DNA from: Bacteroidia bacterium
Lineage (GTDB): Bacteria; Bacteroidota; Bacteroidia; J057
DNA length: 50,435 bases
Assembly (NCBI GenBank): GCA_030430205.1
Contig: JAUIGE010000043.1
Coordinates: forward strand, 1-50,435
Direction of reading: 5' to 3'
Shown: one piece after another, positions 6,901-31,059 of the stretch
Numbering within the stretch: the stretch's first letter is position 1
Layout: the number at the start of each line of letters is the position of its first letter
Made by a program: the position numbers and the translations under genes
Notes under the pieces: model-generated
Databases searched by the model: none
What the model was told of the DNA's origin: nothing
What the model saw: only the letters and a program-made list of their open reading frames with translations

Positions 6901-9900
6901 TGCACTTTGTCAGGATGTGACAGTGTATCTGGATGCTAATGGCAACGCAGCAGCGAGTGCTTCAGCGGTTGATGCTGGTAGTACTGATAACTGTAGCGCT
7001 GTAAGCCTGGCTGTAAGCCGTACGCCTGGTCAGGGACACGGTCCTACCGCTGCATTTGGATGTAATGATGTCCTTTCTCCTGTAGTGGTTGAATTGCTTG
7101 TAGCAGATTCTTCTGGAAATACAGCTACTTGTACAGCAACTGTTACAGTTGAGGACACGATTGCACCTGTGGCAAACTGTGTAAGCGCTTTGACGATCAA
7201 CCTTGATTCACAAGGCATGGCTACACTCGCAGTTTCTGATGTCGATGCAGGTAGCACAGACAACTGTGCCATCGTAAGTTCCAGCATTGATAAGACCAAC
7301 TTCACTACAGCAGATGTGGGTAATCCTTCCATCGTCACGCTGACTGTTACAGATGCCAGTGGCAATACCGCTACTTGTCAGACAACTGTAACTATCGGTG
7401 ATAATGTGCCACCCGTTGCAGCTTGTATTTCTCAGCTGACTGTATATCTCGATGCGAATGGACAAGCTTCCATTATAGCAAGCGACGTAGATGCCGGCAG
7501 CAGTGATGATCGTGGAATCGCTTCTCTAAGTGTGAATCCAAATACATTTGATTGCAATGACCTGGGTACACCAGTGACAACTACCTTATTGGTAACAGAC
7601 TTTAGTGGAAATCAGGATGACTGTCAGACCATTATAACGGTGCTGGATACCCTGGCTCCAACGGTAAGTTGTTCTCCACTCACGATATCACTGGATCCAA
7701 ATGGTCAGGCCTCTGTCACATCTTCTGATGTGGTAGCTCAGACCCAGGACAACTGTGGCGTGACATCGATTGCTGTAGCGCCTTCAACTTTTGGATGTGC
7801 TGATGTTGGAAATACTGTCCTGGTAGGGGTAACAGTATCTGATGCAAGTCAGAATACAGCCAGATGTACTTCACCAGTAGCAGTGATAGATACAGCAGCA
7901 CCTACGGCCAGATGTGCCTCAATAACAGTCGCTTTGGATGGAAATGGACAGGCATTTATTGCGGCAAGCGATGTAGATGCCGGTAGCGGAACATCATGTG
8001 GTGGACCGATTAGCCTGAGCATCAACCCATCATCTTTCGATTGCAGCAATATCGGACAGACAAATCCTGTGACATTGACCGTTTCCAATGGTCAGTCCAG
8101 AACAGATGTCTGTACGGCGACTGTGACAGTGGTAGATACAACTGCTCCAACCATCTTCTGTAACAGCACAGCTGTTCTTTACCTGGGAACAAACAACCAG
8201 GCAACATTGGATCCAACGACGGTTGTGCCATTCGCTTCTGATAACTGCGCGCTTGCTGATACACTTGCTAGCCAGACAAGCTTTGGCTGTCAGGATGTTG
8301 GTTTGTCCAATCAGGTAGTTATCACTGTGACGGATGCATCTGCCAACAGTGCGACATGTCAGGTGACTGTCCTTGTAAATGATTCGACTCCGCCTACAGC
8401 ACTTTGTGCTCCGACCACAGTAAGCCTTGATGCCAATGGCGTCGCTAGCATCACAGGGTCGGATGTAGATGGAGGCAGCACAGACAATTGTACATTGAGC
8501 TCATTGAGTGTTTCTCCAAATACGTTTGATTGTAATGATACTGGCGCTCCTGTAGCGGTTGTTCTTACTGTGACCGATGCTTCTGGCCTCACAGCCACTT
8601 GCTCATCACTCGTCACGGTAGTTGATAACCTCCCACCAACGGCAATATGCCAGCCAGTGACAGTCCCATTGAACGTCAGAGGATATGCTGTGATCACAGC
8701 TGCAATGGTTGATGGCGGTAGCAAAGACAACTGTGGTGTGCAGAGTGTGACCATAGATCAGGATACTTTCTACTGCAACCAGTTTGGTGGCAATGTGGTG
8801 ACCCTGACTGTGACAGATGCCTTTGGAAATAGCAGTACATGTAGCTCCAATGTGTCGATAATTGACAATTTGCCTCCAACACCTGCATGTGCCACTTCTG
8901 TATCCGTAGCTCTTGGACCTAACGGTCAGGTCTTTGTACCTGTGAATCTGGTAGATGCCGGCAGCTTCGATAACTGTAGTATGGTATCTCTGACCTTATC
9001 TCAGCAAAACTTTAGTTGTGCTGATGTCGGAAATAACCGGGTGAAGTTGACCGCAACTGATGCCAGTGGCAATTCCAACTTCTGCTTTGCTAATGTCGAA
9101 GTTCAGGATAACATTCCTCCGCAGGCAATTTGTCAGGATGTAACTGTTACCCTGAATGCGAGCGGTTCTGTAGTAGTTGCTGCATCTGATGTAGATGCCG
9201 GAAGCCTCGATCTGTGTGATCTTGACTTACTTGTAGCACCTGATAGCTTCACTTGTGCTGATCTGGGTGTCAACCAGGTGGTTCTGATCGTCACCGATCC
9301 GGGTGGAAACCAGGACGCATGTACAGCGAATGTAACCGTACAGGCTCCAACAGCCATGCCGACTGCGACCATCTTCACACCAGATACGACTATTTGTTCG
9401 GCCGATACCTTCTTCCTCAGAGCGAATACGCCTGTAGGAAGTGCTGTAGGCCAATGGACAGTTCCTGTAGGAGTAACCATTGCTCCAAATAGTAATAGTC
9501 CGGTTATTTCAGCCATTGGGTTGACTGCGAATACTACTGAGCAATTTATCTGGACAGTAACTGAAGGTTGTTTCACAGTCAGTGATACTGTCTATGTAAC
9601 TGTTAATGAGTCCCCATTTGTGCTGGCATTCGAAACCAATCCTATCACCGTATTTGGCGGATCGGATGGTGAAGCGACAGCAGTGGTTGTGACCTCTACG
9701 GCAATTGCCACCTACAACTGGAGCAACGCTCAGAATACCTCAGTAGCGACGAATCTCTCCGCAGGTACCTATTATGTTTCTGTGATTGACATCAACGGTT
9801 GTGTATCTAACACAGATTCTGTGACCTTGCTCAATCCTCCATCTGCCGGAATCAATGTGAGCGTAAAAGCCATGCTTGAAGGTCCTTACAATAGCACCAG

Positions 9901-10507
9901 CATGTTGATGGATGATAACCTGAGAATATCCCGTTACATCCCAGCTACCGATCCTTACTTTGGTACTTACACGGTGGATACCACCTTGTTCCAGACTACG
10001 GGCAATAATGCTATTGTAGATTGGGTCTGTGTGAGACTGAGAGACGCAAATGACAGTACTGTAATTGTCGACAGTGTGGCCGCACTCATCCAGCGTGATG
10101 GAGATATCGTGAACGTAGATAATTTTTCACCAATCAACTTCCTGAATGTTGCTCCCGGCAATTACTATGTCGAAGTGAAACACAGGAACCATCTGTCGAT
10201 CATGAGTGATACCACGATCAATCTGCCTGGACCAACAGTCCCTGTGGACTTCTTCAATGGTACAATCTCAGCATTTGGTATAAATCCAATGAGAGAGCTA
10301 TCTCCAACAGGACCATACCTCATGTATGGAGGTGATGCAGATGGAAATGGACTGATTCAGAGTAATGACATCTTCCTTGAGTGGCTCCCTGCCCGCGGAT
10401 TGGCAGGATACTATAACGGAGATATGGATATGAACGGACTGGTTCAGTCCAATGATATCTTCCTTATCTGGCTTGCAAACCGTGGTTTTATGAGTCAGGT
10501 GCCATGA
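2..10507 (+). CDS. Giant HYR-like repeat surface protein, 5' end outside the window
   Basis: The reading frame is open from the first bases, so the N-terminus lies upstream; the first GTG at 143 is internal. Over 3,450 codons are visible. Order: one partial and 16 full repeats of about 80 residues (to about 3995), a stretch of PKD/Ig-like domains (about 3995-5930), 14 more repeats (about 5930-9350) including one close to a canonical HYR domain (about 6660-6890), a PKD-like segment, a SprB-type repeat (about 9640-9840) with the GGSDG start and LSAGTYYVSVID end, and a C-terminal tail. The tail has two EF-hand-like loops, GDADGNGLIQSNDIF and GDMDMNGLVQSNDIF (10328-10492), resembling a type I dockerin. 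No classical T9SS type A domain is seen. Role inferred: exported cell-surface adhesin or gliding-type protein, calcium-binding at the C-terminus. The family is clear; the function is inference. Confidence 0.9.
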   Translation, partial: GTISLGVSPTTFDCTSIAGNPNTVTLTVTDGSSNSASCTAGVTVEDNVAPLALCQDLTISLDASGNASIATSDVDAGSSDACGLASLSVNPSTFDCSNTGRNVVTLTVVDNNSNSSSCSATITVEDNIDPTVTCLSTSVQLDANGQATIVPSDVLVSASDNCPNFTLAVNPSQFDCNDLASNPVVVTLTVTDASSNTANCTANVTVQDLLPPTALCQDITVNLDANGIASMVASDVDAGSTDNCAISSLSVSPNTFDCSNLGSNTVTLTVEDGSTNTATCTADVTVVDGLAPVALCQDLTIQLDATGNASIVASDVDAGSSDNCAAVNLSIAPSSFTCQNLGSNTVVLTVTDGSNNTADCTANVTVEDNVPPTALCQDITIQLDANGDASISANDIDANSSDNCSIASLSASQTNFDCNDVGANTVTLTVTDNSNNTASCASIVTVEDNLAPTALCQGTTLALDASGSASLTGSDIDAGSTDNCAIQSLSVSPNTFDCSDVGQNPVVLTVTDVNGNSANCTANVVVLDNIPPTAICQDVTIQLDANGVATLIASDIDAGSSDNCDIVSISVSPSTLGCGDLGVVPVTVFFTDASQNVSTCSPNVTVEDIIPPVANCLPVTVQLDANGDAVVVASDVNNASSDNCFISVATVTPSLFTCNDVGPNTVTLEVYDRAGNSDQCTTTVTIEDNVPPTVFCQDVTVQLDANGNASITASQVDNGSSDACGIASYSVSPSNFTCNDVSQTGTFLTVTDVNGNTASCQATVTVIDQVPPVAICQDITVQLDANGSASINGSDVDNGSSDACSIASLNVSPAIFDCQHIGSNTVSLTVADANGNTATCSATVTVEDNLAPTVVCQTTTVELDANGDGSLAASDVDGGSSDNCAIASLLASPNTFDCSAVGQVAVTLTATDASGNSAACTVNVTVSDNVAPTALCQDITVQLDANGNASITSSDVDNNSSDACGIAGLSASPLAFSCQDVGANTVTLTVTDVNGNTAECRSTATVEDNVPPTAICQDITIQLDPQGRASIAGSDIGSGSTDACGIASLSVSPTAFDCNNVGTNGVSMTVTDVNGNTAQCSATVTVEDNVAPTALCQDITVQLDANGFASITASQTDNGSSDACGIASLSVTPSSFDCSKLGNNNPVVLTVTDVNNNTASCISVVTVEDVTPPTALCQDFTIQLDANGQASITASDIDNGSSDVCGAVSLSIAPSSFDCNTVGQNTVTLTVTDGSQNTAACSATVTVQDLVPPVALCQDITVQLTPNSFRLITGSDVDNGSSDNCAVASLSVSPNTFDCSDIGPNTVTLTVTDAYGNSSTCQSTVTIDETIPVAFGVATTTCDQTLLNIDLQGIVNNSGNGAAANFTWFAQNAPDVGGESTSPVSGSFINDSLFLLVSQAFRTVRYVVTPYSVPGNCQGTSFFVDVTILPNPDVTISVTNGGTTICSGDQRLLQGTVSGTPYQPPLPHTYTWAIIGQTGTAVGQLNGTPGPVNGSNTGFTGTGSGTVTVELALTDNGGCVGRDTVVFTVSSGPTPTIVGADSVCGGASITYYIANPTVGSSYFWLLNSGGSFGSANFRDSIIVHWNNIPGGPHQLIVVETDANNCTANDTIEVTIAPQLTLNSIPNLPSVCPGDTLGPISLTANPADPNTVFTWTVSSSAFLGLSAGSDTATIGQIPAWIALNPSNSVKMGTVTVTASLNGCTSSSKSFTFEVNTGPRLGTADTAKICLGDSYDLGSVVVVDTNLLAGTLTYHTGIPATGANQLTNLVVSPTTTTTYYIKKNAACSAVLPFDVTVNKPVTPTFINPQLVACENSVGITYTLAQTYANHIWTVDSATVVAGGGPLDNFVTIDIDTRSVNIQVIGEDAIGCVDSASISISVVSAPLATITGLDSTYCPNAGPVTLTGSPLPSGPGTSATFSISVGGVITDNGNGTASFDPSLQGVTTGSGVFFITYSYFNGATCGATLTAKVVIKDDTAPTAICKPASVVLNGNGQASIAASDVDNGSSDDCASILSLAVSPTTFDCQNIGANTVTLTVDDGFGNQSSCTTTVTVSETVPPVALCQDITVQLDANGTAVIGGSDVDAGSSDNCGTVSIGVSPSSFDCNDIGQTQPVVLTVFDRSQNSSSCTATVTVEDNLPPAALCTDIQVSLNQNSVASIVASDVDNGSSDNCGIASISANPTSFDCTDLGANSVVLTVTDVNGLTASCISIVTVQDTTPPVIVCPQNINKMLTQNCDSAISWVVPVATDNCGSVTVSSNVTPNTIFRTGTRTVTYTAIDGSQNRTTCSFTVTLTEGGAPTALCQDVTVYLDANGNAAASASAVDAGSTDNCSAVSLAVSRTPGQGHGPTAAFGCNDVLSPVVVELLVADSSGNTATCTATVTVEDTIAPVANCVSALTINLDSQGMATLAVSDVDAGSTDNCAIVSSSIDKTNFTTADVGNPSIVTLTVTDASGNTATCQTTVTIGDNVPPVAACISQLTVYLDANGQASIIASDVDAGSSDDRGIASLSVNPNTFDCNDLGTPVTTTLLVTDFSGNQDDCQTIITVLDTLAPTVSCSPLTISLDPNGQASVTSSDVVAQTQDNCGVTSIAVAPSTFGCADVGNTVLVGVTVSDASQNTARCTSPVAVIDTAAPTARCASITVALDGNGQAFIAASDVDAGSGTSCGGPISLSINPSSFDCSNIGQTNPVTLTVSNGQSRTDVCTATVTVVDTTAPTIFCNSTAVLYLGTNNQATLDPTTVVPFASDNCALADTLASQTSFGCQDVGLSNQVVITVTDASANSATCQVTVLVNDSTPPTALCAPTTVSLDANGVASITGSDVDGGSTDNCTLSSLSVSPNTFDCNDTGAPVAVVLTVTDASGLTATCSSLVTVVDNLPPTAICQPVTVPLNVRGYAVITAAMVDGGSKDNCGVQSVTIDQDTFYCNQFGGNVVTLTVTDAFGNSSTCSSNVSIIDNLPPTPACATSVSVALGPNGQVFVPVNLVDAGSFDNCSMVSLTLSQQNFSCADVGNNRVKLTATDASGNSNFCFANVEVQDNIPPQAICQDVTVTLNASGSVVVAASDVDAGSLDLCDLDLLVAPDSFTCADLGVNQVVLIVTDPGGNQDACTANVTVQAPTAMPTATIFTPDTTICSADTFFLRANTPVGSAVGQWTVPVGVTIAPNSNSPVISAIGLTANTTEQFIWTVTEGCFTVSDTVYVTVNESPFVLAFETNPITVFGGSDGEATAVVVTSTAIATYNWSNAQNTSVATNLSAGTYYVSVIDINGCVSNTDSVTLLNPPSAGINVSVKAMLEGPYNSTSMLMDDNLRISRYIPATDPYFGTYTVDTTLFQTTGNNAIVDWVCVRLRDANDSTVIVDSVAALIQRDGDIVNVDNFSPINFLNVAPGNYYVEVKHRNHLSIMSDTTINLPGPTVPVDFFNGTISAFGINPMRELSPTGPYLMYGGDADGNGLIQSNDIFLEWLPARGLAGYYNGDMDMNGLVQSNDIFLIWLANRGFMSQVP
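5930..9350 (+). repeat. Protein-coding repeat block 2: 14 units of about 240 bp
   Basis: This is the same unit type as block 1, separated from it by about 1.9 kb of PKD/Ig-like sequence. Units here are more divergent. One (about 6660-6890) matches the HYR consensus with VPVATDNCG and TYTAIDGSQN. One unit has lost a conserved cysteine (SSDDRG near 7505). Confidence 0.88.
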
Positions 10508-17995: not shown

Positions 17996-20900
17996 TTATC
18001 TTCCCAATCGTTTCAAAATCATTGATTTTACCCGCTCGAAATCATTTTCGCTGAGAAGGGTATTGGTACTTGAATTCATATCATTGAAATGATCAACGAC
18101 TGTAGCAAATTGATCCTTGATCACTTTGGCTTTGTTGAAACGGTCGTACTGAGGTGGCCCTACCTGCTGGGGGAAATCGCGGATGGTCTCACTCCATTCT
18201 TCAAAAAAATCTCGCCAAAAGGTCATATATGGTCTTAGGCTTCGAGGGCCGTCCAGTGTAAGAGATTCTACCCGAATGGGCAAAATGCGGGTTGAAAATC
18301 GTTTTTTATCCTGCATGCTGGTGCGATAAATTTCACACAGTTCCCACATGCAATAAGGAGATTTTAAGTATTTTTCGCTTACAAATACAACTACCAGATC
18401 GCCTTCTGCCAATTCCTGCATGAACTCACTTATCAGTCCTGCATATTCCACACTCATCTTATCCCTTCCCAGTTCAAAGCCGTCTTTCTCTAAAGCCTCA
18501 TACATCCGATCCACGATCTCCTGACGGCTTTCGCCTTCTTCTTTGTTATCGCCCCAGGCGTAGGAGAAATAGACTTTGGGTCTGTCAGATTTAATTGATT
18601 CAGTAATAGAAGCAGGTACTTTGGTGACTTGTTGCGGAGCCATTTCAATATCAATGACGGCTCCCTCGGGTACTTTATCCGCTAATTGTGTGAGGGCGTG
18701 CCGAATCTGATTGCGGGTAAGCTTGGCATTTTCAGAATTGATAAGGCCTTTGGCTTCTTCATTTTCCAGTCCATATAAACGGCTTGATTGATGTATTACA
18801 TCATTTTCCATCGAAGAATCGACTTCGGTGATGAGGCTTAATGCTTGATGGAATTCATTTTTAGCAATCAGACTCTTGATATGTTTGCGTGCAGAGACTT
18901 GCTGGGTTTTGCTCATAGGAGAAGTGATTTTATGTGGATCTGGAGAATCAATTTTCGCATTGCTATCTTTCTGCAAAAAAGGCCTAAAAGCCTCAAAATC
19001 GGCATATTTCCCATTCTCGCACTTGATCCGCTTTTCCTGCGAATCATGAGCGAGCAGGTCCTGGAGAGAAACGAAGTTCTCTCCATCTACGCTGGCGCTT
19101 TCAGTGCCGGGGCTGTTTTGGAGCTCTTCGATCAGGTTGCGGATGGCGTCGAGCAGGAATTTACCTGCGGGCGTAACGCGGATGCGCAATTCCATCCTGA
19201 CGGCTTCACCTTCCTCTATCTGTTCAAAGTTGACCAGCGCCCGTTCGTTGTCTTTTCTCAAGACGATGCCATACCGCCAGATATCTCTGACCTCTGCCAA
19301 CTGCTGGGTGCGGATAATAAAACGCTGCATAACGCCATAATGCAGAAAGTCCTGGCTGTATCGAAAATAGAGCGATGATCTGCCTTCCCAAAAATCCTCA
19401 ACGCTATTGGGGACTTCTTCATTCAGCATTTGCGGAGCGATAAATTCCCGCTCTTCAAATTTACGCGTCCATCGGTCCTTTTCTTCTTTTTCCACCTCAA
19501 AACACAACTCACAAGACAACATAAAACTGACAAAAAGCTCCCAAGCCTCCTGACTATGGGCTTTCCAGACCTTCACCAGATCCTTGCCACTGAATCGCCC
19601 TTGTTGATTCTGAAAGCTACCATAGTAGAAGTCCTCCCGATCAAAAAGCGTATAAATCGCTTTGATAGCCCATTCCTGATCCAGGATGATCTGTCCTTTA
19701 AACAAGCGTTCCTGGTTGAAGTCATAAAACAATACGCCTGTTTCACTCAACCATTGAAGTACCATGATCGGGTCTTTTACCTCAAATGGCCTAGCCAGTT
19801 CAATGAAGGCTTCTTTGGTCATCTTTTGATGCTCCCTTTCCTTTTCAGGCAATTTCTGATCTTTCTGCTGCAAGCTGCGGATGGCCTCCCTGACAGCTAC
19901 CCAATTGGAAGGAATTTCTGCTTTGGGTTTTACTCTGCCTACTGCACGTTTGATGTTTCGCAATAAGTCATCGACCCCATTTTCATCCCAATCCTTTTTT
20001 CCCGAATCAACATGGTGAAATTTTATTTTAGGATAAGCCCTGTGGATTTCTGGTAAAACCTCCTCATCTTCAGGTATATAGCATTTTGTCTGAACAATCA
20101 GAATGGGGCTTCCCTTTCCCAGGCTTTTTGCATAGGCAAGCCAATAAGGGAGTTTGAAATTCCGGTATTTCCGAAGCTTGCCCGCTTCTGTGCGCTCAGT
20201 AAAAGATTTGCCTTCCGTTTCCTTATCCCACAACAGCAGATAGACCGCATTGCTCTGCATAAAAAGCCGGTGCGTAGCATGGTAAATATCCTGCCCCCCA
20301 AAATCCCAAAAATTCAACTTCCAGGGATTCACCCGCTCATCTTCAAATGGCTCCATGATCACAATGGCATGGGTAGAATCCCAGTCAGGATTGAAATTAT
20401 CATGAACGATGCGGTTCACCAGGCAGCTTTTGCCTACGTTGCCATTGCCAATTAGCAACACTTTACATTCATTGTCGAGGGTACTGCCTTTGGCAAAATC
20501 GAGTAGGTAATCTCCCAGTTTTTGAAGGTCACATCTTTTACCTTCTGAAAAGGTCTTGATGGTATCTGGAAAATCATTTTTATCTACATTCAGGTTGAGT
20601 AAACGAGGGAAAATATTTTCCAAGGCCTCAACATCAGTGGCAGGTAGTTTCCGTAATCTATTTTGGTTGGTGTGCAAGGTCTCCAATTGCGGAAACGGCT
20701 TGATCCAATCCCAATTCTCAATTACATTTTCTCCCAGATACAGATGCTGCAAAGCAGCAAGAGGCTCTGAGAACTGAAGGGTTTTCAGGTTATTGTTACT
20801 GGCATCCAGGTAGGAAAGGGAAGGGAAACTTCCCTGCAAAACCAGTTCCCTCAGCTCCTTATTTCTGCTCACATCCAGATACTTCAGTGCCGCAAAGCCA

Positions 20901-21298
20901 TTTGCTAAAACAAGCTGTTTCGATAATTCACATTCATTTACATCCAACTCTTCCAGGGCAGGCAGTGCTGCCGAAAAAGACAAGTCAAATAGATTTTTTG
21001 CCTCACTCACATTCAAAAAACGAAGTTTCGGCATAGCTGGCAACCGCAGGCTGGCAAATCGATTCTCGCTCAGATTGAGCGAGATCAACTCACCCCAGTC
21101 AAATTCCAGAAAGGCTTTGGCTTGCTCATGCGTAAAGGCGAGGTCCAGGCCGCAGAGATTGAGAGCCGTCAGCTTGCCTGCTTCATTCACACAATAGCTA
21201 TTGCGATATGTATAGCGTATCAGCTCGGCAGCATCTACATCTGTCCGCAGTTGAGGCTGTATGCCTAATGTCTGAAATAGGTCCTGGATCTGCATCAT
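17996..21298 (-). CDS. LRR-Roc-COR GTPase with EAD11-like region and C-terminal TIR domain
   Basis: Start chosen at the ATG of MMQIQDLFQ; a TTG 45 bp upstream is possible but overlaps the predicted promoter. The product is 1,100 residues and cytoplasmic. Order: about nine leucine-rich repeats (about 35-235); Roc GTPase (about 275-450) with P-loop GNGNVGKS (284-291) and switch DFGGQ (332-336), and a G4 site reading QTKC rather than NKxD; COR-like region (about 460-745); an alpha-helical effector-associated segment (about 801-875, RKHIKSLIAKNEFHQAL to RNQIRHALTQL) matching my memory of EAD11; and a TIR domain (about 906-1045) with KVYFSYAW and the candidate catalytic Glu986 in CMWELCE. Family knowledge: bacterial TIR domains often hydrolyse NAD+ on activation, and EADs recruit partners by homotypic contact. 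Role inferred: conflict or immune-type switch. Confidence 0.9.
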   Translation of the reverse strand: MMQIQDLFQTLGIQPQLRTDVDAAELIRYTYRNSYCVNEAGKLTALNLCGLDLAFTHEQAKAFLEFDWGELISLNLSENRFASLRLPAMPKLRFLNVSEAKNLFDLSFSAALPALEELDVNECELSKQLVLANGFAALKYLDVSRNKELRELVLQGSFPSLSYLDASNNNLKTLQFSEPLAALQHLYLGENVIENWDWIKPFPQLETLHTNQNRLRKLPATDVEALENIFPRLLNLNVDKNDFPDTIKTFSEGKRCDLQKLGDYLLDFAKGSTLDNECKVLLIGNGNVGKSCLVNRIVHDNFNPDWDSTHAIVIMEPFEDERVNPWKLNFWDFGGQDIYHATHRLFMQSNAVYLLLWDKETEGKSFTERTEAGKLRKYRNFKLPYWLAYAKSLGKGSPILIVQTKCYIPEDEEVLPEIHRAYPKIKFHHVDSGKKDWDENGVDDLLRNIKRAVGRVKPKAEIPSNWVAVREAIRSLQQKDQKLPEKEREHQKMTKEAFIELARPFEVKDPIMVLQWLSETGVLFYDFNQERLFKGQIILDQEWAIKAIYTLFDREDFYYGSFQNQQGRFSGKDLVKVWKAHSQEAWELFVSFMLSCELCFEVEKEEKDRWTRKFEEREFIAPQMLNEEVPNSVEDFWEGRSSLYFRYSQDFLHYGVMQRFIIRTQQLAEVRDIWRYGIVLRKDNERALVNFEQIEEGEAVRMELRIRVTPAGKFLLDAIRNLIEELQNSPGTESASVDGENFVSLQDLLAHDSQEKRIKCENGKYADFEAFRPFLQKDSNAKIDSPDPHKITSPMSKTQQVSARKHIKSLIAKNEFHQALSLITEVDSSMENDVIHQSSRLYGLENEEAKGLINSENAKLTRNQIRHALTQLADKVPEGAVIDIEMAPQQVTKVPASITESIKSDRPKVYFSYAWGDNKEEGESRQEIVDRMYEALEKDGFELGRDKMSVEYAGLISEFMQELAEGDLVVVFVSEKYLKSPYCMWELCEIYRTSMQDKKRFSTRILPIRVESLTLDGPRSLRPYMTFWRDFFEEWSETIRDFPQQVGPPQYDRFNKAKVIKDQFATVVDHFNDMNSSTNTLLSENDFERVKSMILKRLGR

Positions 21299-21340: not shown

Positions 21341-21373
21341 CAAATGTAAAGAAGCAGCAGGACTTTCGCTAAA
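21341..21373 (-). promoter_or_regulatory. Predicted promoter of the Roco-TIR gene
   Basis: The minus-strand -7 box TACATTTG (21341-21348) matches TAnnTTTG exactly. The -33 position has TTTA (21370-21373) at 21-nt spacing, one base from consensus. Transcription would start about 35-40 nt before the chosen ATG at 21298. Confidence 0.5.
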
Positions 21374-21630
21374 GTATGCTACTCATTCTGCTGCTTCGAG
21401 CGAAAAAATCGCTTATTCGGCTACCGAGGGGTAGCACAGGAGCAACATCTGGTCAATGGAAGCTATCCGGCATTCCTGTGAGCTGGGGGACAACACGAGG
21501 CGGAAGCCGATATTGTTGTTACGGTTCTCCGGCACGTTGTTGTTCCGATAGGCGGAGCGGCAGTTCTGCGGATTGTTGATCCAGCTGCCGCCGCGTTGCA
21601 CGCGGTTGTTGCCCTGCGATGTTGTTCCAC
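21351..21630 (-). ncRNA. Predicted DGR template RNA (TR RNA)
   Basis: The start is inferred about 4-6 nt after the -7 box at 21634-21641. The RNA would hold a leader of about 16 nt, the 131-nt template repeat (21613-21483), a segment complementary to the region downstream of the variable repeat (21483-21451), and a run of hairpins: GCTACC/GGTAGC (21420-21435), AGCGA/TCGCT (21399-21413) and a 10-bp stem GAAGCAGCAG/CTGCTGCTTC (21351-21397) that may end the transcript. An open frame across it has no plausible gene start and crosses the upstream terminator, so I regard it as non-coding. Boundaries are inference. Confidence 0.6.
21483..21613 (-). repeat. Template repeat (TR) of a diversity-generating retroelement
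   Basis: This 131-bp sequence aligns to 21777-21907 without gaps. On the minus strand, 20 of its roughly 33 adenines differ in the other copy, but only one of about 98 non-adenine bases does (a C to G). No position has A only in the other copy. Translation in the shared frame shows many Asn codons ([16 protein letters not shown]), as known DGR templates do. The last 27 nt before the end of homology contain one adenine, at the very 3' end (final CAG), and are identical in both copies, as expected for the priming side. Confidence 0.93.
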
Positions 21631-21633
21631 ATG

Positions 21634-21664
21634 CAAAAATAAAAAAATTGGGGCTACGCCCCAA
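21634..21664 (-). terminator. Rho-independent terminator of the CHAT-FGE operon
   Basis: Minus strand: stem TTGGGGC, loop GTA, stem GCCCCAA, then TTTTTTT-A-TTTTT. It lies about 110 bp after the FGE-like gene stop and separates that transcript from the template repeat. Confidence 0.85.
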
Positions 21665-21665
21665 A
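21634..21665 (-). promoter_or_regulatory. Near-perfect Bacteroidota promoter for the template RNA
   Basis: Minus strand: -33 TTTG (21665-21662), exactly 20 nt, then TATTTTTG (21641-21634), an exact TAnnTTTG match. It sits about 20 bp upstream of the template repeat. The 20-nt spacer is largely the stem-loop of the terminator of the upstream gene. Confidence 0.7.
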
Positions 21666-21772
21666 CCCCAGGAAACTCCGGCGATTACTCCTGCTCGTCG
21701 GTCGTCGTCCCTCCTCCCACTCACAGGAGCTACCGCCTGCGTAGCTCACAGGAATAGCCGGAAAAGCATCCA

Positions 21773-22495
21773 TTACCTGGGGGACAACACGAGGCGGAAG
21801 CCGAAATCGTCGTCACGGTACTCCGGCACGCGGTAGTTCCGACAGGCGGAGCCGCAGCCCTGCGGAGCGCGGAGCCAGCAGCCGCCGCGTAGCACGCGGT
21901 AGCTGCCCGTATCAGGGCCAGGCGGATTTTCGACTGTGCCGAGGTCTGCGCATTGCTGGTAGTAATCACCAGACCATCGGTCCTCGCACCACTCCCAGAC
22001 ATTGCCGCTCATATCGTAGATGCCGAGTTCGTTGGGTCGTTTGAGGCCTACTGGCTTGGTTTCGCCATGGCTGTTTTGGCCGAACCAGGCAACTTCCTTC
22101 AGCTTATCGCTGCCCGCGTAGGTGAAGCCTTGGCTGAGTTTGCCTCCGCGTGCGGCGTATTCCCACTCTGCCTCGGTGGGTAACCGATAGGTATGGCCTG
22201 TCTTTTTGTTGAGGATTTTGATGAATTCCTGAACTTCATGCCAGTTTACCTGTTCTACCGGGCGGCGCGGACCACGGAAGAAGGAGGGATTGGGTTTGTC
22301 GGCAGGCATGACTGCCTCCCAGAGGGCCTGGGTGACGGGGTATTTGCAGATGTGAAAGTCGGTGAGTTTGACAGAATGGGGTGAGTGACTGAGTTCGTCA
22401 TCTTTGCCCATCATGAAGGTGCCTCCTTCGACACAGATGGTATCGAGGGCCTGGGGGAAGGCAGTGAGGTCGAGCTGGGTCGTGGGGTGTTGCAT
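21773..22495 (-). CDS. FGE/SUMF1-like (C-type-lectin fold) protein, DGR target with variable repeat
   Basis: Start chosen at MQHPTTQLDL, 4 nt after the CHAT gene stop. It is 240 residues, about one full FGE-sulfatase domain, with no signal peptide. Family landmarks: VEGGTFMMGKDDE (about 22-34), FHICKYPVTQALWEAV, RPVEQVNWHEVQEF, YRLPTEAEWEYAARGG, GLKRPNELGIYDMSGNVWEW and the end RVLRGGCW...GFRLVLSPR. Family knowledge: genuine members generate formylglycine or bind metals, and many bacterial ones use the fold for ligand binding, a common DGR target. The last 44 codons are the variable repeat: 17 codons differ from the template, 16 of them through adenine substitutions, and two become Cys (GGCW, SACR). 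The fixed FGE active-site cysteine pair is not evident, so binding rather than catalysis is likelier. Probably co-transcribed with the CHAT gene. Confidence 0.93.
   Translation of the reverse strand: MQHPTTQLDLTAFPQALDTICVEGGTFMMGKDDELSHSPHSVKLTDFHICKYPVTQALWEAVMPADKPNPSFFRGPRRPVEQVNWHEVQEFIKILNKKTGHTYRLPTEAEWEYAARGGKLSQGFTYAGSDKLKEVAWFGQNSHGETKPVGLKRPNELGIYDMSGNVWEWCEDRWSGDYYQQCADLGTVENPPGPDTGSYRVLRGGCWLRAPQGCGSACRNYRVPEYRDDDFGFRLVLSPR
21777..21907 (-). repeat. Variable repeat (VR) of the DGR target
   Basis: This is the 3'-terminal 131 bp of the FGE-like gene; the stop codon follows at 21775-21773. Relative to the template, 20 adenine positions carry other bases (G, C and T all occur) and one C is G. 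It ends in an identical 28-nt GC-rich block. Confidence 0.93.
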
Positions 22496-22499
22496 GATG

Positions 22500-25220
22500 T
22501 TAAGAGAGTTTGAGTTTGGGTTTGAGTACGAAGTACAAGGCAATCAAAATCAGGACTAGCACAGCTAGTCCTGCAATCAGCCAGGCGAAAGCGCCTGAGA
22601 ACATCGCCTGGGCATCGCCCACCACCATCAAACTCGCCCATTGGCGAGGGTGATAGTCGAGCGCTGTGCGCGCGCTGCTTGCAGCGAGGAAGTCCCGCTT
22701 GCTATCGGCAAGCGCCAGGTCTTTGGCTTCGCCGGCTTTCAGCTTGCTGAAGAAATCCTGCAACAGTTGGGCCGTGGCCTGCTCATCACTCGACCAGAGG
22801 GTCGAGAGGATGCTCTGGCAGCCTGCGTAGGCGAAGCCACGCGCGAAGGACATCAGACCTTCTCCCCGGTATTCTTTGCCGATGCCTGTCTCACAGGCGC
22901 CGAGTACGGCGAGCTCGGCGTCGAGCTGGAGGTGGTAGAGCTCGCTGAGGTAGAGCAGGGGTTCGGGCTGGTCGTCCCGGAAACTGATCCAGGAACGGCC
23001 GGAAGCGAGGCTGTCTGCCTTGGCGTGGGTGTAGAGGTTGAGGATGCGAAAGGGCTGCTCGCGCTGTTGGAGGTGCTGGAGGAAATTATTTTTGGTAGCG
23101 GCTTCCTCTTGAAGGAGTTCGGTTTGGGGCCAGAGGGATTGCAGATGAGGGCCGAGCGATTTGCCGGCGGTCAGGTGCGGCAGATGCTGGTAAAAGACCG
23201 GAGCGAGGGAAAAGATGCCTTTTCCCTCTTTGGGCTGCTGCTGTAAGGCATGCAGCAGGGTGGCCGACCAGGCATAAGCTATGCTTTTGTCATAGATCAG
23301 GTAGGGCAGTTCCTGCCATGATTTTGGTGAATCAGGCAGCTGCGCTACGAGCGCATCAAAAGGAATGCGCGCCAAAGCGCGATCTGGGACGATGACCAGG
23401 CGAGCTGAAAGCTCGCCCAGTGGTCCCAGCAAATGCTGGTAGAGTTGGTAAGCTGCCTGCGCATATTGCGCAGGGGAGACCGGATCGGTGGAGCGCAGGC
23501 TGCGCTCCAGGATGTCGATGGCAGCCGTCAGGCTGCCGGGCTCACCGAGCTGGTAGAGTTCGAGGCCGGAGGCAGAGAGTTTGAAGGCGTAGACGCCTGC
23601 ATCGCCGTAGAAATATTCGATCAAGCTGCTTTTATGCGGGAGCTTGTGTATCATTTGATCCGAAGTCACGCTGGCGTAGTTGTATTTAAATTGATAATAA
23701 TCAGGATATAGCTGTTCGAGCGAATCAATGAATTGTGCCTGTCGAAAGCGCAATTCGCGCAGGAGGTCGCGTAGGCTGTCATTGGGCGCGTGGCCCAGCG
23801 ACATTTCCAGCTCCCGGATTTCAACTTCCTGCACCCTCCACTGAAAAGCTGCGGCTTTGGGCAGAACAGACTGGCGCGACTGGTCATTTTTCAATTCTTC
23901 CAAAAGCCCGAGTGCCTTGCTGCTTTCTACATAGGCAAAAGCGCGTTCAATGTATTTCTCCTTGTCTTTCAGCTGGCTGATCGCCCAGAGCGACATCTCC
24001 ACCCGCGGATGCCGCGAGGCACCTACGCGCAGGCGCGATGATTCAAAATCGTAGCTTTTACGAAATTTATCTTCCGTGGCATACAGCAAATCCAGCGCAT
24101 CTATCACGGCATGCAGATAGTTTTGCTTGGCTTGCTGCAGGTATTTCTCCCGCCAGCATTTCGCTTTGCCTTCCAATGCCTGGATGAAGACATTTTCCCG
24201 ATATATTTGATCTGGAGAAAAGTTTTTTCGCGGATCGAGGGTGTCGATGACACCGGGCAGGCAATGATAAAGCGCTTGTTGAAAGCTTTGCAAAGCGCCA
24301 TCCCAGTTTTTTTCCTGCATCAATACATTTCCCCAACCGATATACCACTGACCGACTTCGCGGCGTGTTTGATTGCCGTAGGCTTTTTTTGCCTGTATGG
24401 CAGCCCTTTGGAAGGCGCTTTTTGCGGAATCTATTTGTCCCAATGCCGTATAGGTTTCCCCCAACAAGCGATATGCTTCTGCCGCCGCCTCCAAAAAATC
24501 TATTGCCAAAAAGTGTCTGATGGCCTCATGAGTCATCAGGATGCCCTGAGGATAAGCTTTTTGCTGCAAAAGGCAGGCGCCCAAATTTTCTTTTGCAAGG
24601 CCCAGTTCCAGGTCAGAGAGGGAAGGGAGGGTCATCACTTCTTTAGCCTGCTTACTGGCCTTTTCCACTTCCCCTTCCCAATAGTAGGCTTTCGAAAGAT
24701 CGGAAAGGGTCATGGCAAGTAGGGAGTGGTCATTCGCAGCGCGGAAGTTGTCGACTGCTTTTTGCAGGTAGCTGATAGCTTTCTCATAATCCGCAAAGCG
24801 GGTGTAGATATTGCCGAGGGACTTGGCGCAGCTGGCGATGCGAAGCGGGGGCGCCTGGACTTGTTCGTAGTTGGCTAGCGCAAGGCTATAGGCTTGCTCC
24901 GCAGGGATAAATTGCCCGTTTATTTCAAATAAATATGCCTTGTATTGCCATGAACGGCCTTTTCGGATGTCGCTTTCCTGTGATAAAAAAATGGCTGTGT
25001 CCAGCAGCAGATGGGCATCTGCGGGAAGGCTGCGGTAAAGTCTGCGACCTACTTCGTAGTAGATTGCCAGGGAATCTCCTTGCGTTTGCGCCTGCTTCAG
25101 TGCGCAGCTTAAAAAAGGCTGATAGGAGCCTTTTTCGGGGTTTTGCGCGCGTTCCTGCGCCTGGAGGAGGCAGCTGTCAGGGATGTTTTGGGCGAGAAGG
25201 GGGCTGCCGAGGAGGAGCAT
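22500..25220 (-). CDS. TPR-CHAT protease-like protein with signal peptide and C-terminal membrane helix
   Basis: Start chosen at the ATG of MLLLGSPLLAQ; the longer open frame upstream runs through palindromic DNA. The product is 906 residues. A short export signal (1-11) lacks the usual basic N-region, so the true start may be a TTG just upstream or may have been altered by the nearby palindromes. A TPR region (about 30-480) includes IYTRFADYEKAISYLQKAV. The C-terminal CHAT peptidase domain (about 590-860) has candidate catalytic His732 in LYTHAKAD and Cys776 in GACETG. One transmembrane helix (about 876-899) is followed by a Lys-rich tail. Family knowledge: CHAT is a caspase-like protease of conflict and cell-death systems. 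Topology suggests a periplasmic protease anchored in the inner membrane. It is followed after 4 nt by the diversified FGE-like gene. Confidence 0.9.
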   Translation of the reverse strand: MLLLGSPLLAQNIPDSCLLQAQERAQNPEKGSYQPFLSCALKQAQTQGDSLAIYYEVGRRLYRSLPADAHLLLDTAIFLSQESDIRKGRSWQYKAYLFEINGQFIPAEQAYSLALANYEQVQAPPLRIASCAKSLGNIYTRFADYEKAISYLQKAVDNFRAANDHSLLAMTLSDLSKAYYWEGEVEKASKQAKEVMTLPSLSDLELGLAKENLGACLLQQKAYPQGILMTHEAIRHFLAIDFLEAAAEAYRLLGETYTALGQIDSAKSAFQRAAIQAKKAYGNQTRREVGQWYIGWGNVLMQEKNWDGALQSFQQALYHCLPGVIDTLDPRKNFSPDQIYRENVFIQALEGKAKCWREKYLQQAKQNYLHAVIDALDLLYATEDKFRKSYDFESSRLRVGASRHPRVEMSLWAISQLKDKEKYIERAFAYVESSKALGLLEELKNDQSRQSVLPKAAAFQWRVQEVEIRELEMSLGHAPNDSLRDLLRELRFRQAQFIDSLEQLYPDYYQFKYNYASVTSDQMIHKLPHKSSLIEYFYGDAGVYAFKLSASGLELYQLGEPGSLTAAIDILERSLRSTDPVSPAQYAQAAYQLYQHLLGPLGELSARLVIVPDRALARIPFDALVAQLPDSPKSWQELPYLIYDKSIAYAWSATLLHALQQQPKEGKGIFSLAPVFYQHLPHLTAGKSLGPHLQSLWPQTELLQEEAATKNNFLQHLQQREQPFRILNLYTHAKADSLASGRSWISFRDDQPEPLLYLSELYHLQLDAELAVLGACETGIGKEYRGEGLMSFARGFAYAGCQSILSTLWSSDEQATAQLLQDFFSKLKAGEAKDLALADSKRDFLAASSARTALDYHPRQWASLMVVGDAQAMFSGAFAWLIAGLAVLVLILIALYFVLKPKLKLS

Positions 25221-25225
25221 GAAAA

Positions 25226-25401
25226 CCAAACAGGTTTCCAAAACCTGTTTGGTTTGCCCTCGTCCCCGGACGTCATGCCGGAAAGGGTTGAGGCTTTGGG
25301 AAACCCTTATCCGGCATCTCCTGGACCAAAGGCCGATTGCCCTTGTCGCTGGAGATACCGGATAATTTGTTTGCAAAGCCAAACAAATTTCCGGTATGAC
25401 G
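25226..25401. repeat. Nested palindromic elements upstream of the CHAT gene
   Basis: There are three strong hairpins: CCAAACAGGTTT/AAACCTGTTTGG (25226-25252), ATGCCGGA-AAGGGTT/AACCCTT-TCCGGCAT (25275-25316) and ATACCGGA-ATTTGTTTG/CAAACAAAT-TCCGGTAT (25355-25396). Outer arms CGTCATGCCGG (25271) and CCGGTATGACG (25391) also pair, as do CCGGCATCTCC (25311) and GGAGATACCGG (25351). This is the look of a MITE-like or REP-type repeat. Confidence 0.8.
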
Positions 25402-25443
25402 CCAATGGGCGTGAGCCAACGACAAAAGGAATTTTTGTCAACA

Positions 25444-27411
25444 TCAGCGAACCATAATTTTTTTAACCCATCTCTCATTTACCCGCAAAATATACAAGCC
25501 TGCGGGCAATGTTGAAAGAGATACTTTGCTGAATCCGGTTTCACTGAAAGGGATATCCTGGATTTTGTGTCCCTGGAGATCGTAGAGGGCTATTCTTTGC
25601 ACTTTGCGCCCCAGGCTGCTGTAGTCTATCATGACCCAGTCCTGAGCGGGATTGGGGTAGACGCGCAGTTCAGCTGGGAAAAGATTTTCCCCTATGCCTA
25701 CTGAAGTGCGGTCACAGGGGTAATTGGCCAATTTTTGGTCTGTATTGGCGCAGATGTGAATGTGGACTGTGTCGCAAGTGGGGGGCGTATTGTTGTCGCA
25801 GACAATGATACTGAGCACATCCAGGCCACTATAGCCGCCTGCTACAGGCGCATAATCAAAGCGAAAGCTCCCTGCAGCGGTCTGTACAACAGGCCGTTTG
25901 CCTTGCTCAGCCGAGTCTGAAGTCAGGCTATAAGCCATGAGATGAGGATATCTCGTAGCATCGAAATAGATATTCAGATCAAAAGAGGCTTTATTCATCG
26001 AATCTGCCAACTGATCGCAGCAGTATTTGATGGTCTGGGCAGGCGCGGTCACGACTTCGGGATTGTCATCAAAATATATTTCAACCTTATTTTCAATCAC
26101 CACCCCGTATTCCATAAAAGGATAGGTGTAGATGTCAAATTCAAAACTTCCCGTGGTTTCCAGCTCGCTGAACTCTTCGCCATAACCCGACTCTTTGGTC
26201 CCCCGAAGGATGGCATTTTTGAATGCCCAGACGAAGCTATCAGCAAGTGGCTGCGTTTCGGTCTGTGCGAAAACAGGCGTAGGATTGCTCGTCGTCCAGG
26301 GGTAGGGGAGGGAAGGCAGGAGCGCGGGGTTGGGATACTTGAGCAGACTGTCTGCCGGGATGTATTGATAGCCGATGCGCATGGCTGTAAGCTGTATGGT
26401 GCTGGGATCGAGGCGGGGATCGAGCTTGTCAGTAACTTTGATACTGTCTGTAGGGCCTTCGCCGGTATTTTGAAAATGCACGATATAGTGCAGCAGTTGG
26501 GCAGGATTGGTGGAAATGGTGTCTTTGGAGACAAGCTTGTAGTTGGGGTCGTAGGACTTGGCGACAAAGATGTCGGGCAATTCGTATTTGTCACAAGGCG
26601 GTATATTGCCTTGTGGATCAAACTCGCCAAAGCTGCCTTTGACATTCAAAGGCTGACCGACTTTAATGTCGAGTGGCACCTCAAAATTGAGGAAGAAAGT
26701 ATAGCGTTCATCATCCGAAGGATTGGGGGGCGTAAATCGGGTAATATTGATGAAAAGCGAGTCTATTCCGCTGCCAAAGGAGCATTCCGAAATATTGAGG
26801 GTTTCGCTATTGTAGCCCTCCAGGATGGCTGCCACACCGCCCACGGGCGGAGCGAGGGTGAAGGAATTGTAGGTGAAAATGAATTCCCACTCAAGCATAC
26901 CGGTCATGGTCCGGCAGGCATTCAGGTCATAAGTCACGATGAAAGTCATCGGATAACCCGGACGAACCTCCCGTACCGGGTGAATCATCAGGCTGCTGCC
27001 CAGCATATTGACGTTGTTGCCTGTCTCAGGCTGGCTAAGCGAACCGATGGTGACAGTCGGTGCGCCTGAGCGCTTTACGTCATCGTCCGGAGGCACCGGA
27101 GGAGAATAGATTTGGGTCAACTCCATACGTGCCTTATAATTGCCAGTTTGCCCATAACCATAAGTTATGGGCAATTTGACATCTGCGGGCAGATTATTGT
27201 TTTTGTTGTCTATGATCTTGAAATGACCGTCCCCAAAGTTCCAGAAATAGCGATAACTGGATGCCCCGCTGATTTTTGGGAAAGTGGGATAAGAGGCAGG
27301 TTCAAAGGTGATTTCGTTGTCGTTGGTGGTAGGGACCGTGATGGTCTGAGCATCCATGAAGCCGAACCACATCAGCAGACTGAGAAACAGGAGAAAGGAT
27401 TGCTTTTTCAT
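25444..27411 (-). CDS. Secreted PKD/DUF11-like protein with T9SS type A sorting domain
   Basis: Start chosen at MKKQSFLLFLSLLMW, giving 655 residues with a clear signal peptide (about 1-22, ending MDAQ). An N-terminal PKD-type domain (about 35-90) contains YRYFWNFGDGHFKI. A long middle part includes the segment VAKSYDPNYKLVSKDTISTN and LHYIVHFQNTGEGPTDSIKV, the hallmark of the conserved-repeat/DUF11-like (DUF7619) domain found in many Bacteroidota surface proteins. The T9SS type A domain (about 580-655) reads LRVYPNPAQDWVMIDY and ends VKKIMVR. Likely an exported surface protein; the ligand is unknown. It lies 223 bp upstream of the CHAT gene start, with the palindromic block between. Confidence 0.88.
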   Translation of the reverse strand: MKKQSFLLFLSLLMWFGFMDAQTITVPTTNDNEITFEPASYPTFPKISGASSYRYFWNFGDGHFKIIDNKNNNLPADVKLPITYGYGQTGNYKARMELTQIYSPPVPPDDDVKRSGAPTVTIGSLSQPETGNNVNMLGSSLMIHPVREVRPGYPMTFIVTYDLNACRTMTGMLEWEFIFTYNSFTLAPPVGGVAAILEGYNSETLNISECSFGSGIDSLFINITRFTPPNPSDDERYTFFLNFEVPLDIKVGQPLNVKGSFGEFDPQGNIPPCDKYELPDIFVAKSYDPNYKLVSKDTISTNPAQLLHYIVHFQNTGEGPTDSIKVTDKLDPRLDPSTIQLTAMRIGYQYIPADSLLKYPNPALLPSLPYPWTTSNPTPVFAQTETQPLADSFVWAFKNAILRGTKESGYGEEFSELETTGSFEFDIYTYPFMEYGVVIENKVEIYFDDNPEVVTAPAQTIKYCCDQLADSMNKASFDLNIYFDATRYPHLMAYSLTSDSAEQGKRPVVQTAAGSFRFDYAPVAGGYSGLDVLSIIVCDNNTPPTCDTVHIHICANTDQKLANYPCDRTSVGIGENLFPAELRVYPNPAQDWVMIDYSSLGRKVQRIALYDLQGHKIQDIPFSETGFSKVSLSTLPAGLYILRVNERWVKKIMVR

Positions 27412-29340: not shown

Positions 29341-30078
29341 TCAATCCGAAAGCGCTACAGCAGTAGAAGTACTGGCCGAGATGGCAATGGCTCCCGCAGG
29401 TCCTGCTACCAATCCTCCTACAAGTGCTCCGGCTACATCGCCGAGCAGCGTCTGCCACCATTTAGCCTTGCCGGTAGGGGTGCCTCCGCCTCCGGGATTG
29501 TTGCCTGCCCATAAGAAGGTACTGTGACGCATCACACTGAGTCCTGCAAAAAATGGCTCTTCATGCACGATGCCTTCATCATTCATATACTTCGTCTCCA
29601 GGGCTATGATTTTTGTGATGATAGCATTGATCTCTTTGGTGGTGCTATAGGGCATTTGTGAAACCTCATCAATGACTTTCTGAAATTGTGTCATTTCATA
29701 GGGATTGAATGGTGGCGTTTGGGTTAATTTTTCCAGGTCCAAAAAGTTTTTGCTAGGGATCTCTTCATCTGCTCTAAGGCCCAGTAGGGTCCGAAATTCC
29801 TGATGGTAAAATTTCGCTGAGTCTAACCGGGCACGTTCGTAGGCTTTCTCAAAGATGAAAACTTCTGCTCCCAATGGATCGGTCACTTGCATGGCGGTAA
29901 TTTCATCTTTGAAATTGTCGAGCAGATACTGTACACTTTCATTATGCTGTTGGCCGTAGTAATCATAAGCGTTGAGAGAATTCTCTGGCTGGAGAGGCGT
30001 GTCAAGAATGGGCTCGATGATCTCTGTACAACTGCTCAGAGCGAAGAGGGCGATAAGGATAATTGCTAAATTTTTCAT
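29341..30078 (-). CDS. Small lipoprotein with glycine-zipper C-terminus (paralogue 1)
   Basis: Start chosen at MKNLAIILIALFALSSC, giving 245 residues with the lipid-modified Cys at 17. It is strikingly similar over its whole length to the next gene on the same strand (30261-30998): shared blocks are LDTPLQPENSLNAYDYYGQQ, TTKEINAIITKIIALE and LSVMRHSTFLW. The C-terminal 35 residues are hydrophobic and Gly/Ala-rich (WWQTLLGDVAGALVGGLVAG), like a glycine zipper able to insert in membranes. An ECF-type motif lies upstream. No known family was recognised. It may be an envelope stress or pore-type protein; that is inference. Confidence 0.8.
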   Translation of the reverse strand: MKNLAIILIALFALSSCTEIIEPILDTPLQPENSLNAYDYYGQQHNESVQYLLDNFKDEITAMQVTDPLGAEVFIFEKAYERARLDSAKFYHQEFRTLLGLRADEEIPSKNFLDLEKLTQTPPFNPYEMTQFQKVIDEVSQMPYSTTKEINAIITKIIALETKYMNDEGIVHEEPFFAGLSVMRHSTFLWAGNNPGGGGTPTGKAKWWQTLLGDVAGALVGGLVAGPAGAIAISASTSTAVALSD

Positions 30079-30123
30079 GATCTTATTTTTAAAAGTTTGA
30101 ATGGATTTGTTCCTATTTGCCAC

Positions 30124-30260: not shown

Positions 30261-30998
30261 TTATTCTTCACTCGTAGCCAGCGCACCTGATACCGCAGCA
30301 CCTAAGCCTACACCCGTAGCGGGTCCTCCCAGCAGCGTGCCTACGCCCGCACCGATGCAATCTCCCAGAACGATCTGCCACCAGGGGCGTGAAGCGTACT
30401 GTGCGCCTCCTGTGTTGGGATTGTGTCCCCAGAGAAAAACACTATGGCGCATCACACTCAGGGTTCCGAAGAAAGCCGCATCATTTTCAATGTCTTCATT
30501 GTTCAGATACTTGCTTTCCAGGGCTATGATCTTGGTGATGATCGCATTCACCTCCTTGGTCGTGCTATGTGGCATTTGTGTCACATCATCTATCACGAGT
30601 TGAAGCTGAAGCCTTTCAAAAGGATTGTAGGGCGGTATTTGGGACAGTTTTTTTATGTCGAAGAAGTTTTTCCGTGCGAAGAGGTCATCGCTTCCCATGT
30701 CAAGCAGGTGTCTGAATTCCATGTAGTAAACAGAGTCTACTTTGGCATATTTCAAGGCTTCCTGAAAGATGAAGGCTTCTGCTCCCAGAGGGTTTGTGGC
30801 TTGCCTAGCGGCGATTTCGTCTGAGAAGTTGTCAAGCAGATACTGGACGGCCTCATTGTGCTGATCTCCCATATAGTCAAAATCGTTGAGCGAATTGGCA
30901 GGCTGGAGCGGTGTGTTGATGATCGGATCGATGACTTCTGTACAGCTACTCAGGATAAGGGCCAGGAGGGTGGCGATGATGATTGCTAAATTTTTCAT
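30261..30998 (-). CDS. Small lipoprotein with glycine-zipper C-terminus (paralogue 2)
   Basis: This is 245 residues and the tandem paralogue of 29341-30078. Lipobox ALILSSC puts the modified Cys at 19. The order of conserved blocks is the same: NTPLQPANSLNDFDYMGDQH, a helical acidic middle, TTKEVNAIITKIIALESKY and LSVMRHSVFLWGHNP. The hydrophobic C-terminus is WWQIVLGDCIGAGVGTLLGG with extra small residues to the end (GAAVSGALATSEE). It is divergently transcribed from the ECF sigma gene, and site B of the shared motif lies upstream. Probably an envelope protein controlled by that sigma factor; the function is unknown. Confidence 0.82.
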   Translation of the reverse strand: MKNLAIIIATLLALILSSCTEVIDPIINTPLQPANSLNDFDYMGDQHNEAVQYLLDNFSDEIAARQATNPLGAEAFIFQEALKYAKVDSVYYMEFRHLLDMGSDDLFARKNFFDIKKLSQIPPYNPFERLQLQLVIDDVTQMPHSTTKEVNAIITKIIALESKYLNNEDIENDAAFFGTLSVMRHSVFLWGHNPNTGGAQYASRPWWQIVLGDCIGAGVGTLLGGPATGVGLGAAVSGALATSEE

Positions 30999-31059
30999 GA
31001 TGTTATTTTTTAAAAGTTTGAGTTCAATGTTTTTGAATCCGTTTGTTTCGATTCGCCAG

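Follow-up and report, generated by a model that had tools for sequence, protein, structure and literature searches.

The stretch of DNA considered here (the window: 50,435 nucleotides, contig C51 of a 7.24-Mb Bacteroidia draft genome in 80 contigs) carries three neighboring genes on its minus strand. The first encodes a TPR-CHAT protein (22500..25478; CHAT, 2.6e-41) and ends 4 nt ahead of the ATG of the second, which specifies a 240-residue FGE-sulfatase/C-type-lectin-like protein (21773..22495), hereafter the target. The third encodes an LRR-Roc-COR-EAD11-TIR protein (17996..21298; Roc, 1.7e-21; COR-A, 2.4e-22; EAD11, 4.3e-19; TIR_2, 9e-12). The ATG at 22495 is our choice of start, the list of open reading frames beginning at a TTG at 22543; on the longer, 256-residue reading, a profile search matched PF03781 (FGE-sulfatase) at 1.4e-47. 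The nearest solved chain is 2y3c, variable protein 1 (TvpA) of Treponema denticola (6.9e-34). Compared with the PADLOC models, the three proteins matched no system, TPR aside. Elsewhere in the window, positions 143-10507 of the plus strand form a single open frame of 3454 amino acids, and 29501-30080 and 30421-31000 make up a tandem-like duplication of 0.6 kb, 69% identical, that covers two minus-strand reading frames.

In the available text of two reports, lectins varied by diversity-generating retroelements (DGRs) and encoded beside effector genes of this kind are proposed to be antigen sensors (PMC10907252, PMC7159879), and the target gene probably encodes a diversified sensor serving the CHAT or TIR effectors next to it. 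The arrangement resembles the ternary and related conflict systems, in which, as far as the accessible part of the source goes, an FGS/FGE variable domain also lies among effector genes (PMC7159879). The MoxR ATPase and vWA partner of ternary systems were not seen among the five window proteins scanned; the neighbors here are the TPR-CHAT and LRR-Roc-COR-EAD11-TIR genes.

The 3' end of the target gene (VR1, minus strand 21907-21777) recurs downstream, after a gap of 163 bp, as TR1 (minus strand 21613-21483). Program alignment reproduced what had been counted by hand in the original prediction: the copies are 131 nt each, gap-free, and differ at 21 sites. One further upstream base is identical in both, extending the repeat to 132 nt and TR1 to 21614. 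The earlier estimate of about 33 adenines in TR1, 20 of them altered, with a single C to G change besides, proved exact. Read from TR1 to VR1, the changes are A>G (10), A>T (6), A>C (4) and C>G (1, at template position 55), so that G, C and T all occur as replacements, as had been claimed; VR1 bears an A at none of the 21 sites. The adenine-bias test that had been recommended gave a hypergeometric P of 5.4e-14 for at least 20 of 21 differences falling on A. At the codon level 17 of 43 amino acids are changed, 16 through adenines alone, the number predicted, and the seventeenth (R>G) through the C>G change, while the A-poor 3' end is the same in both copies, again as predicted. VR1 occupies the C terminus of the target, as in C-type-lectin (FGE) DGR targets, and the PF03781 match and the kinship with TvpA uphold the assignment of this copy to an FGE-like lectin gene. 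Both copies are homologous coding sequence, as a duplicated and drifting gene fragment would be; yet the confinement of 20 of 21 differences to the adenines of one copy (P = 5e-14) contradicts ordinary divergence, as the original prediction had argued, and the template copy moreover bears a conserved RNA element (see below). We regard drift as practically out of the question. Judged by its sequence, TR1/VR1 is the template/variable repeat pair of a DGR.

What the original prediction did not provide for is the lack of an enzyme. Its DGR reading stands for the repeat pair, its direction, the class of the target and the adenine specificity, but is incomplete in that the window yielded no reverse transcriptase (RT). 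Three RVT_1 matches occur genome-wide, none on C51: a 498-residue protein on C13, a short one on C31 that adjoins a Cas1-like gene (so labeled from its translation), and a 335-residue RT on C60. The last contains YMDD and IGNLTSQ, of which we take the second to be a mark of DGR RTs. Directly before it lies an HRDC gene (PF00570, 3e-16), and the two are flanked by two FGE targets, with variable repeats VR2a and VR2b, and a template, TR2. Used as a query at 1e-20, this RT recovered the C60 locus alone in the genome. It is accompanied by HRDC, where an RT of the BPP-1 type would have Avd; the same contig also carries a bAvd-like gene, some 167 kb away. Thus, the genome possesses a DGR-type RT, but the TR1/VR1 locus has none beside it. 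As the sole RT of this type is on C60 with a template of its own, TR1/VR1 is either an RT-less satellite or a remnant, not a complete DGR.

It might be supposed that VR1 is rewritten from TR2 and that TR1 is inert, given that TR2 is linked to the RT and that its own variable repeats differ from it at adenines only (19/19 sites for VR2a, 21/21 for VR2b). This is contradicted by the 40 mismatches between TR2 and VR1, 18 of them not at A, against 21 and 1 for TR1, and we give the idea hardly any credence, having rejected TR2 as the template of VR1. The two templates themselves differ at 25 sites, 19 of which are not at a TR1 adenine. Since TR1, and not TR2, templates VR1, the pair has a history of its own. 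Two other features of C60 may be recorded. At about 20.6 kb (L015), an AAC-rich, TR-like FGE fragment (6637-6755, minus strand) adjoins a bAvd-like gene on the opposite strand (PF22296; 6757-7086, plus strand); a search of the genome with the fragment recovered TR1, TR2 and 26 bp of VR1 and nothing else, hence no variable repeat of its own, and fragment and bAvd-like gene together look like what is left of an Avd-type DGR. At about 193 kb (L016, 12983-13780), an FGE gene follows an LRR-Roc-CHAT gene; its variable part (VR2c) is 68% identical to TR2 and has no flank of the S type defined below, and a perfect hairpin, GGTCAGC...GCTGACC, lies behind the gene.

The interval between VR1 and TR1 offers a clue to that history. 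The usual gene order in relatives is VR - HRDC - RT - TR, with an LRR-Roc protein following the TR on C60 and in genome G411 and also, from reading of translations, in G009 and G004. The 163-bp interval, which contains no HRDC gene, matches the VR-to-HRDC leader of G009, a member of the same genus, with a score of 45 that was attained in 0 of 100 shuffles. The matching stretch (21632..21670, minus strand) consists of a GC-rich hairpin, a T run and TATTTTTG, the last of which we assume to fit the Bacteroidota TAnnTTTG promoter box, and resembles what stands before HRDC in relatives. As this leader is kept and TR1 retains its 3' RNA element, HRDC and RT seem to have been cut out from between VR1 and TR1, with the leader left before TR1; it is likely both the scar of the deletion and the TR1 promoter. 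One could argue instead that the HRDC and RT genes truly lie between VR1 and TR1 and that assembly or binning went astray, the contig being joined across them, for this is a draft of 80 contigs and repeats are known to cause such mis-joins. But the interval is made up of the leader, a short unique stretch and TR1, without a repeat junction, the RT query finds no second locus in the genome, and similar pairs exist in other assemblies; an artifact is highly improbable.

TR1 keeps the conserved 3' element of the TR RNA. We built a model (R1) from the 3' flanks of 39 RT-linked TRs, leaving out this genome and its genus (hence G009). R1 matches the window at 21416..21496 (minus strand; 64.3 bits, E 8.9e-15), and scores 60.8 at TR2 and 76.4 in G009. 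Across 395 genomes of the class it gave five matches below 1e-5, in four genomes; comparison by eye placed an RT within about 1.1 kb of four of the five, the window being the exception. The terminal stem-loop of the TR RNA, with GTAG and GCGAAAG, is also retained (21351..21397, minus strand), and a stretch of 36 nt running on from it shares 97% identity with the TR2 locus. Folding of the 146-nt 3' region gave a z of -2.5 relative to shuffles, 2 of 200 of which did equally well; the small GCCGGATAGC hairpin of the consensus is absent from the lowest-energy fold of the window region. TR1 also has UGACC in place of UGAAC, the AAC of which is invariant in 39/39 modeled flanks; the form TGACCAG was seen elsewhere only in the flank of locus L122, which is outside the modeled set and pairs weakly.

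These observations bear on the chief competing explanation, a retired remnant: a complete DGR that was active until HRDC and RT were deleted, its TR1/VR1 idle since and starting to decay. The apparent deletion, the one non-adenine difference between the repeats and the change of UGAAC to UGACC at an otherwise invariant base all speak for it. Against it, the leader, the template, the RNA element and the flank pairing can all still be recognized, a suitable RT is present in the genome, and adenine-only pairs without a local RT occur in two other genomes, G408 and G411. We view retirement as possible but rather doubtful.

The latter pairs came from a search with R1 of 39 genomes (reached through 40 of the 80 RT loci), a set that includes G009 and in which every genome had been picked for such an RT. 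It returned 59 matches in 37 genomes, 52 of which, as assessed by eye, lie no more than about 4.2 kb from an RT on their contig. Of the remaining seven, all inspected, three (L286, L287 and L290) hold as pairs without a local RT. L291 was discarded as spurious and L288 for want of a TR/VR pair; at L292 the RT is cut by the contig end. L289 (G437:C28:11000-26000) was likewise set aside: it has the TR RNA element, the RT immediately upstream is truncated, both VRs have drifted (17/26 and 18/26 differences at A), and the whole is a DGR caught in decay. Apart from these seven, a match in G003 proved to be RT-linked. In G408:C288, 15 of 15 differences are at A; in G411:C70 all 21 are, though this contig (L290) has only 4,607 bases and an RT may lie past its ends; and in G437:C41 the shares are 15/21 and 18/24. 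Against these VRs, the RT-linked TRs compared from the same genomes show 23 non-A mismatches in G408 (one TR), 23-28 in G411 (three) and 13-20 in G437 (two). The layout in G411 is TR - LRR-Roc-COR - FGE, and the target in G408 is a caspase-FGE fusion. Pairs that differ at adenines only and have no RT nearby speak for action in trans, or else for very recent loss of the RT.

We compared the 3' flank of the TR RNA (F) with the reverse complement of the 3' flank of the VR (S) in 83 stretches (80 RT loci, the window and two from this genome). TR/VR pairs at an adenine share of at least 0.7 were obtained in 71, and 90 pairs had sufficient flank. The mean F-S score was 31.8 for a locus's own flanks, 15.4 with the VR flanks of other loci and 12.6 with shuffles, and 79 of the 90 pairs reached at least the 99th percentile of shuffles. 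Control comparisons, made with 5' flanks, with mixed flanks or in direct orientation, stayed at background (11.5-12.8). Among 53 loci selected at a score of at least 22, own partners matched at 493 of 530 positions, against 267.5 (s.d. 12.7) when permuted. In eight multi-locus genomes, with every VR counted, the mean was 36.2 within loci (n=56) and 20.9 across them (n=70), cross-matches between closely related loci reaching 39. In the window, F (21451..21482, minus strand) scores 38 with its own S (21743..21776, minus strand), a value unequaled by any other locus's VR flank; the VR2 flanks give 30 and 29. The pairing beside VR1 needs a 1-nt bulge. At loci L132 and L134, one TR serves four and three VRs, respectively, over about 10 kb, and every VR has its own S. 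The comparisons thus indicate that, in the HRDC-type clade, the TR RNA 3' flank is antisense to the 3' flank of its own VR, a feature defined here.

The mismatches are telling in this regard. In 77 pairs, 92 preserve G-U/G-T pairing between TR RNA and VR sense strand, as opposed to 7 other transitions and 54 transversions. With identical flanks collapsed the figures are 48, 4 and 31; by distinct position and type the G-U class outnumbers other transitions 25 to 4, and outside the GCCGGATGGC motif 14 to 4. Such an excess favors pairing under selection over passive copying.

The register of the pairing is constrained as well. If a nucleotide of the RNA primes the cDNA, then the RNA up to that nucleotide and the cDNA should together be continuous antisense to V (the variable repeat) and S. 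We scored every possible joint with gaps allowed, and 75 of 80 pairs with a recognizable motif reached 14. The last RNA nucleotide fell at the A, A or C of UGAAC in 65.25 of the 75 (ties shared), compared with 6.5/19 when another locus's VR flank was used, 1/20 with a shuffled flank and 7/10 with the TR's own flank as target. Ungapped scoring was weak in this clade (mean 12.8 versus 11.3 for shuffles; GAAC on top in 15/90) because S has indels. The A of UGA near 21453 is accordingly a candidate priming nucleotide in the window. For the flank pairing in itself, a skeptic might hold that F does not guide the cDNA to the target DNA but is an antisense RNA that regulates the target mRNA, or that S has been copied passively from F during homing. 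Since the mRNA and the sense strand of the DNA read alike, sequence alone cannot separate regulation from targeting; however, regulation has no need of a pairing that abuts the VR in a fixed register ending in UGAAC, and passive copying does not predict the 48 to 4 excess of G-U-type mismatches. We consider either version unlikely.

The same test, run ungapped on 53 BPP-1-like viral pairs, placed 43.3 joints at GTGGTCA, the VR mostly ending in GTCTG or a similar CTG, and so recovered the joint of Bordetella phage BPP-1; these positions presumably correspond to A56, the adenine that primes, and G117, the base copied first. The BPP-1-like loci are not independent, being related (RT identity of 57-100% for most). 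Extended flank complementarity had to be abandoned as a general DGR feature: among BPP-1-like pairs, 1/55 reached at least the 99th percentile of shuffles and 9/55 at least the 95th. No joint pattern emerged in 28 pairs of other viral DGRs, of which four showed local complementarity at p <=0.01, none at a convincing joint. BPP-1 itself has flank complementarity at p 0.015-0.03, a score we do not rely on, as the sequence of its hairpin stem could be changed without loss of function according to the available text (PMC3240598). For BPP-1, an internal spacer adenine is described as priming cDNA within IMH* (PMC12875486, as excerpted). The HRDC-type loci share with BPP-1 adenine-specific transfer from TR to VR, a structured RNA 3' of the TR and signals 3' of the VR (available sections of PMC3240598 and PMC12875486). 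They differ in having HRDC where BPP-1 has Avd, and in a complementarity of about 30 nt outside the VR, as opposed to about 7-9 nt inside the IMH.

Taken together, the data lead us to favor, with reasonable though not strong confidence, the view that TR1/VR1 is the satellite, devoid of an RT, of an HRDC-type DGR, and is served in trans by the C60 RT and HRDC. In its support are the role of TR1 as template, the intact RT with HRDC on C60, the leader match, the RNA element, the F-S antisense relation and the recurrence of such pairs; the single non-A difference (none in the TR2 pairs), UGACC and the bulge beside VR1 count against it, as does the failure of the flank rule in the 28 pairs of other viral DGRs and, in its extended form, in BPP-1-like ones. 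One could envision TR1 being transcribed as a small RNA on which the C60-encoded RT and HRDC would act in trans. The cDNA would begin at the adenine of UGA(A)C, at the 3' end of F, and copy TR1 with errors at A. RNA guide and mutated cDNA, still joined, would pair without a break, as a single antisense strand, with the sense strand of VR1, F lying on S and the cDNA on V; exposure of the sense strand on the lagging strand is favorable in the portion of the BPP-1 work accessible to us (PMC12875486). The pairing would mark the VR as the target, and not the TR, which lacks S, and the lectin tip would be rewritten.

How far this extends is a more delicate matter. We rate as an even bet the general proposal that RNA guides a DGR to its target, with the segment just ahead of the priming nucleotide and the cDNA growing from it making one antisense strand and each TR carrying its own address; that RT-free TR/VR cassettes are modular satellites sharing one RT in trans; and that BPP-1 uses a short form, GTGGTCA on the IMH. 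A close parallel is the HRDC-type DGR of T. denticola, with a TvpA-related FGE/C-type-lectin variable protein and an HRDC gene beside the RT. There, the available text reports remote targets, and others in isolates that lack both RT and TR; such remote VRs or leftover targets differ from the present case, in which TR and VR stand together without an adjoining RT (PMC4891356). Thiohalocapsa PB-PSB1 likewise has several DGR loci per genome, some of its targets being best explained by RT and TR in trans; its DGR targets include CHAT, TIR and NACHT domains, and incomplete loci with private VRs (DGR 3, 7) show intact variants in long reads. In the sections at hand its trans targets match a remote RT-linked TR, whereas here a private TR accompanies the VR and the enzyme alone is remote (PMC10907252). 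For conflict systems with DGR-linked FGS domains, the accessible text places the TR nearby or elsewhere in the genome (PMC7159879). Leftover targets, and the use of a remote TR in trans, are on record (e.g. PMC4891356, PMC10907252, in part). Complementarity between TR and VR flanks was not found in the available portions of the open-licence PMC literature (including PMC3240598, PMC12875486, PMC3521204, PMC4891356, PMC10907252, PMC7159879, PMC10053308, PMC8867640 and PMC8144416), nor was biochemistry on the HRDC-type clade. The flank rule may already be in print, key BPP-1 biochemistry lying outside the literature searched.

Even for BPP-1, the way in which the mutated cDNA reaches and enters its target is described as not fully understood (PMC12875486, available text). 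In the loci compared, a stretch of the TR RNA is able to pair with sequence flanking its own target, which suggests a means by which these elements locate the gene that they mutate. The covarying flank amounts to a concrete base-pairing rule, points to a likely priming nucleotide for the clade and would account for the TR not being its own target. If RT-less satellites are real, surveys seeded with RTs would miss templates and targets, and one enzyme could serve several sensors per cell.
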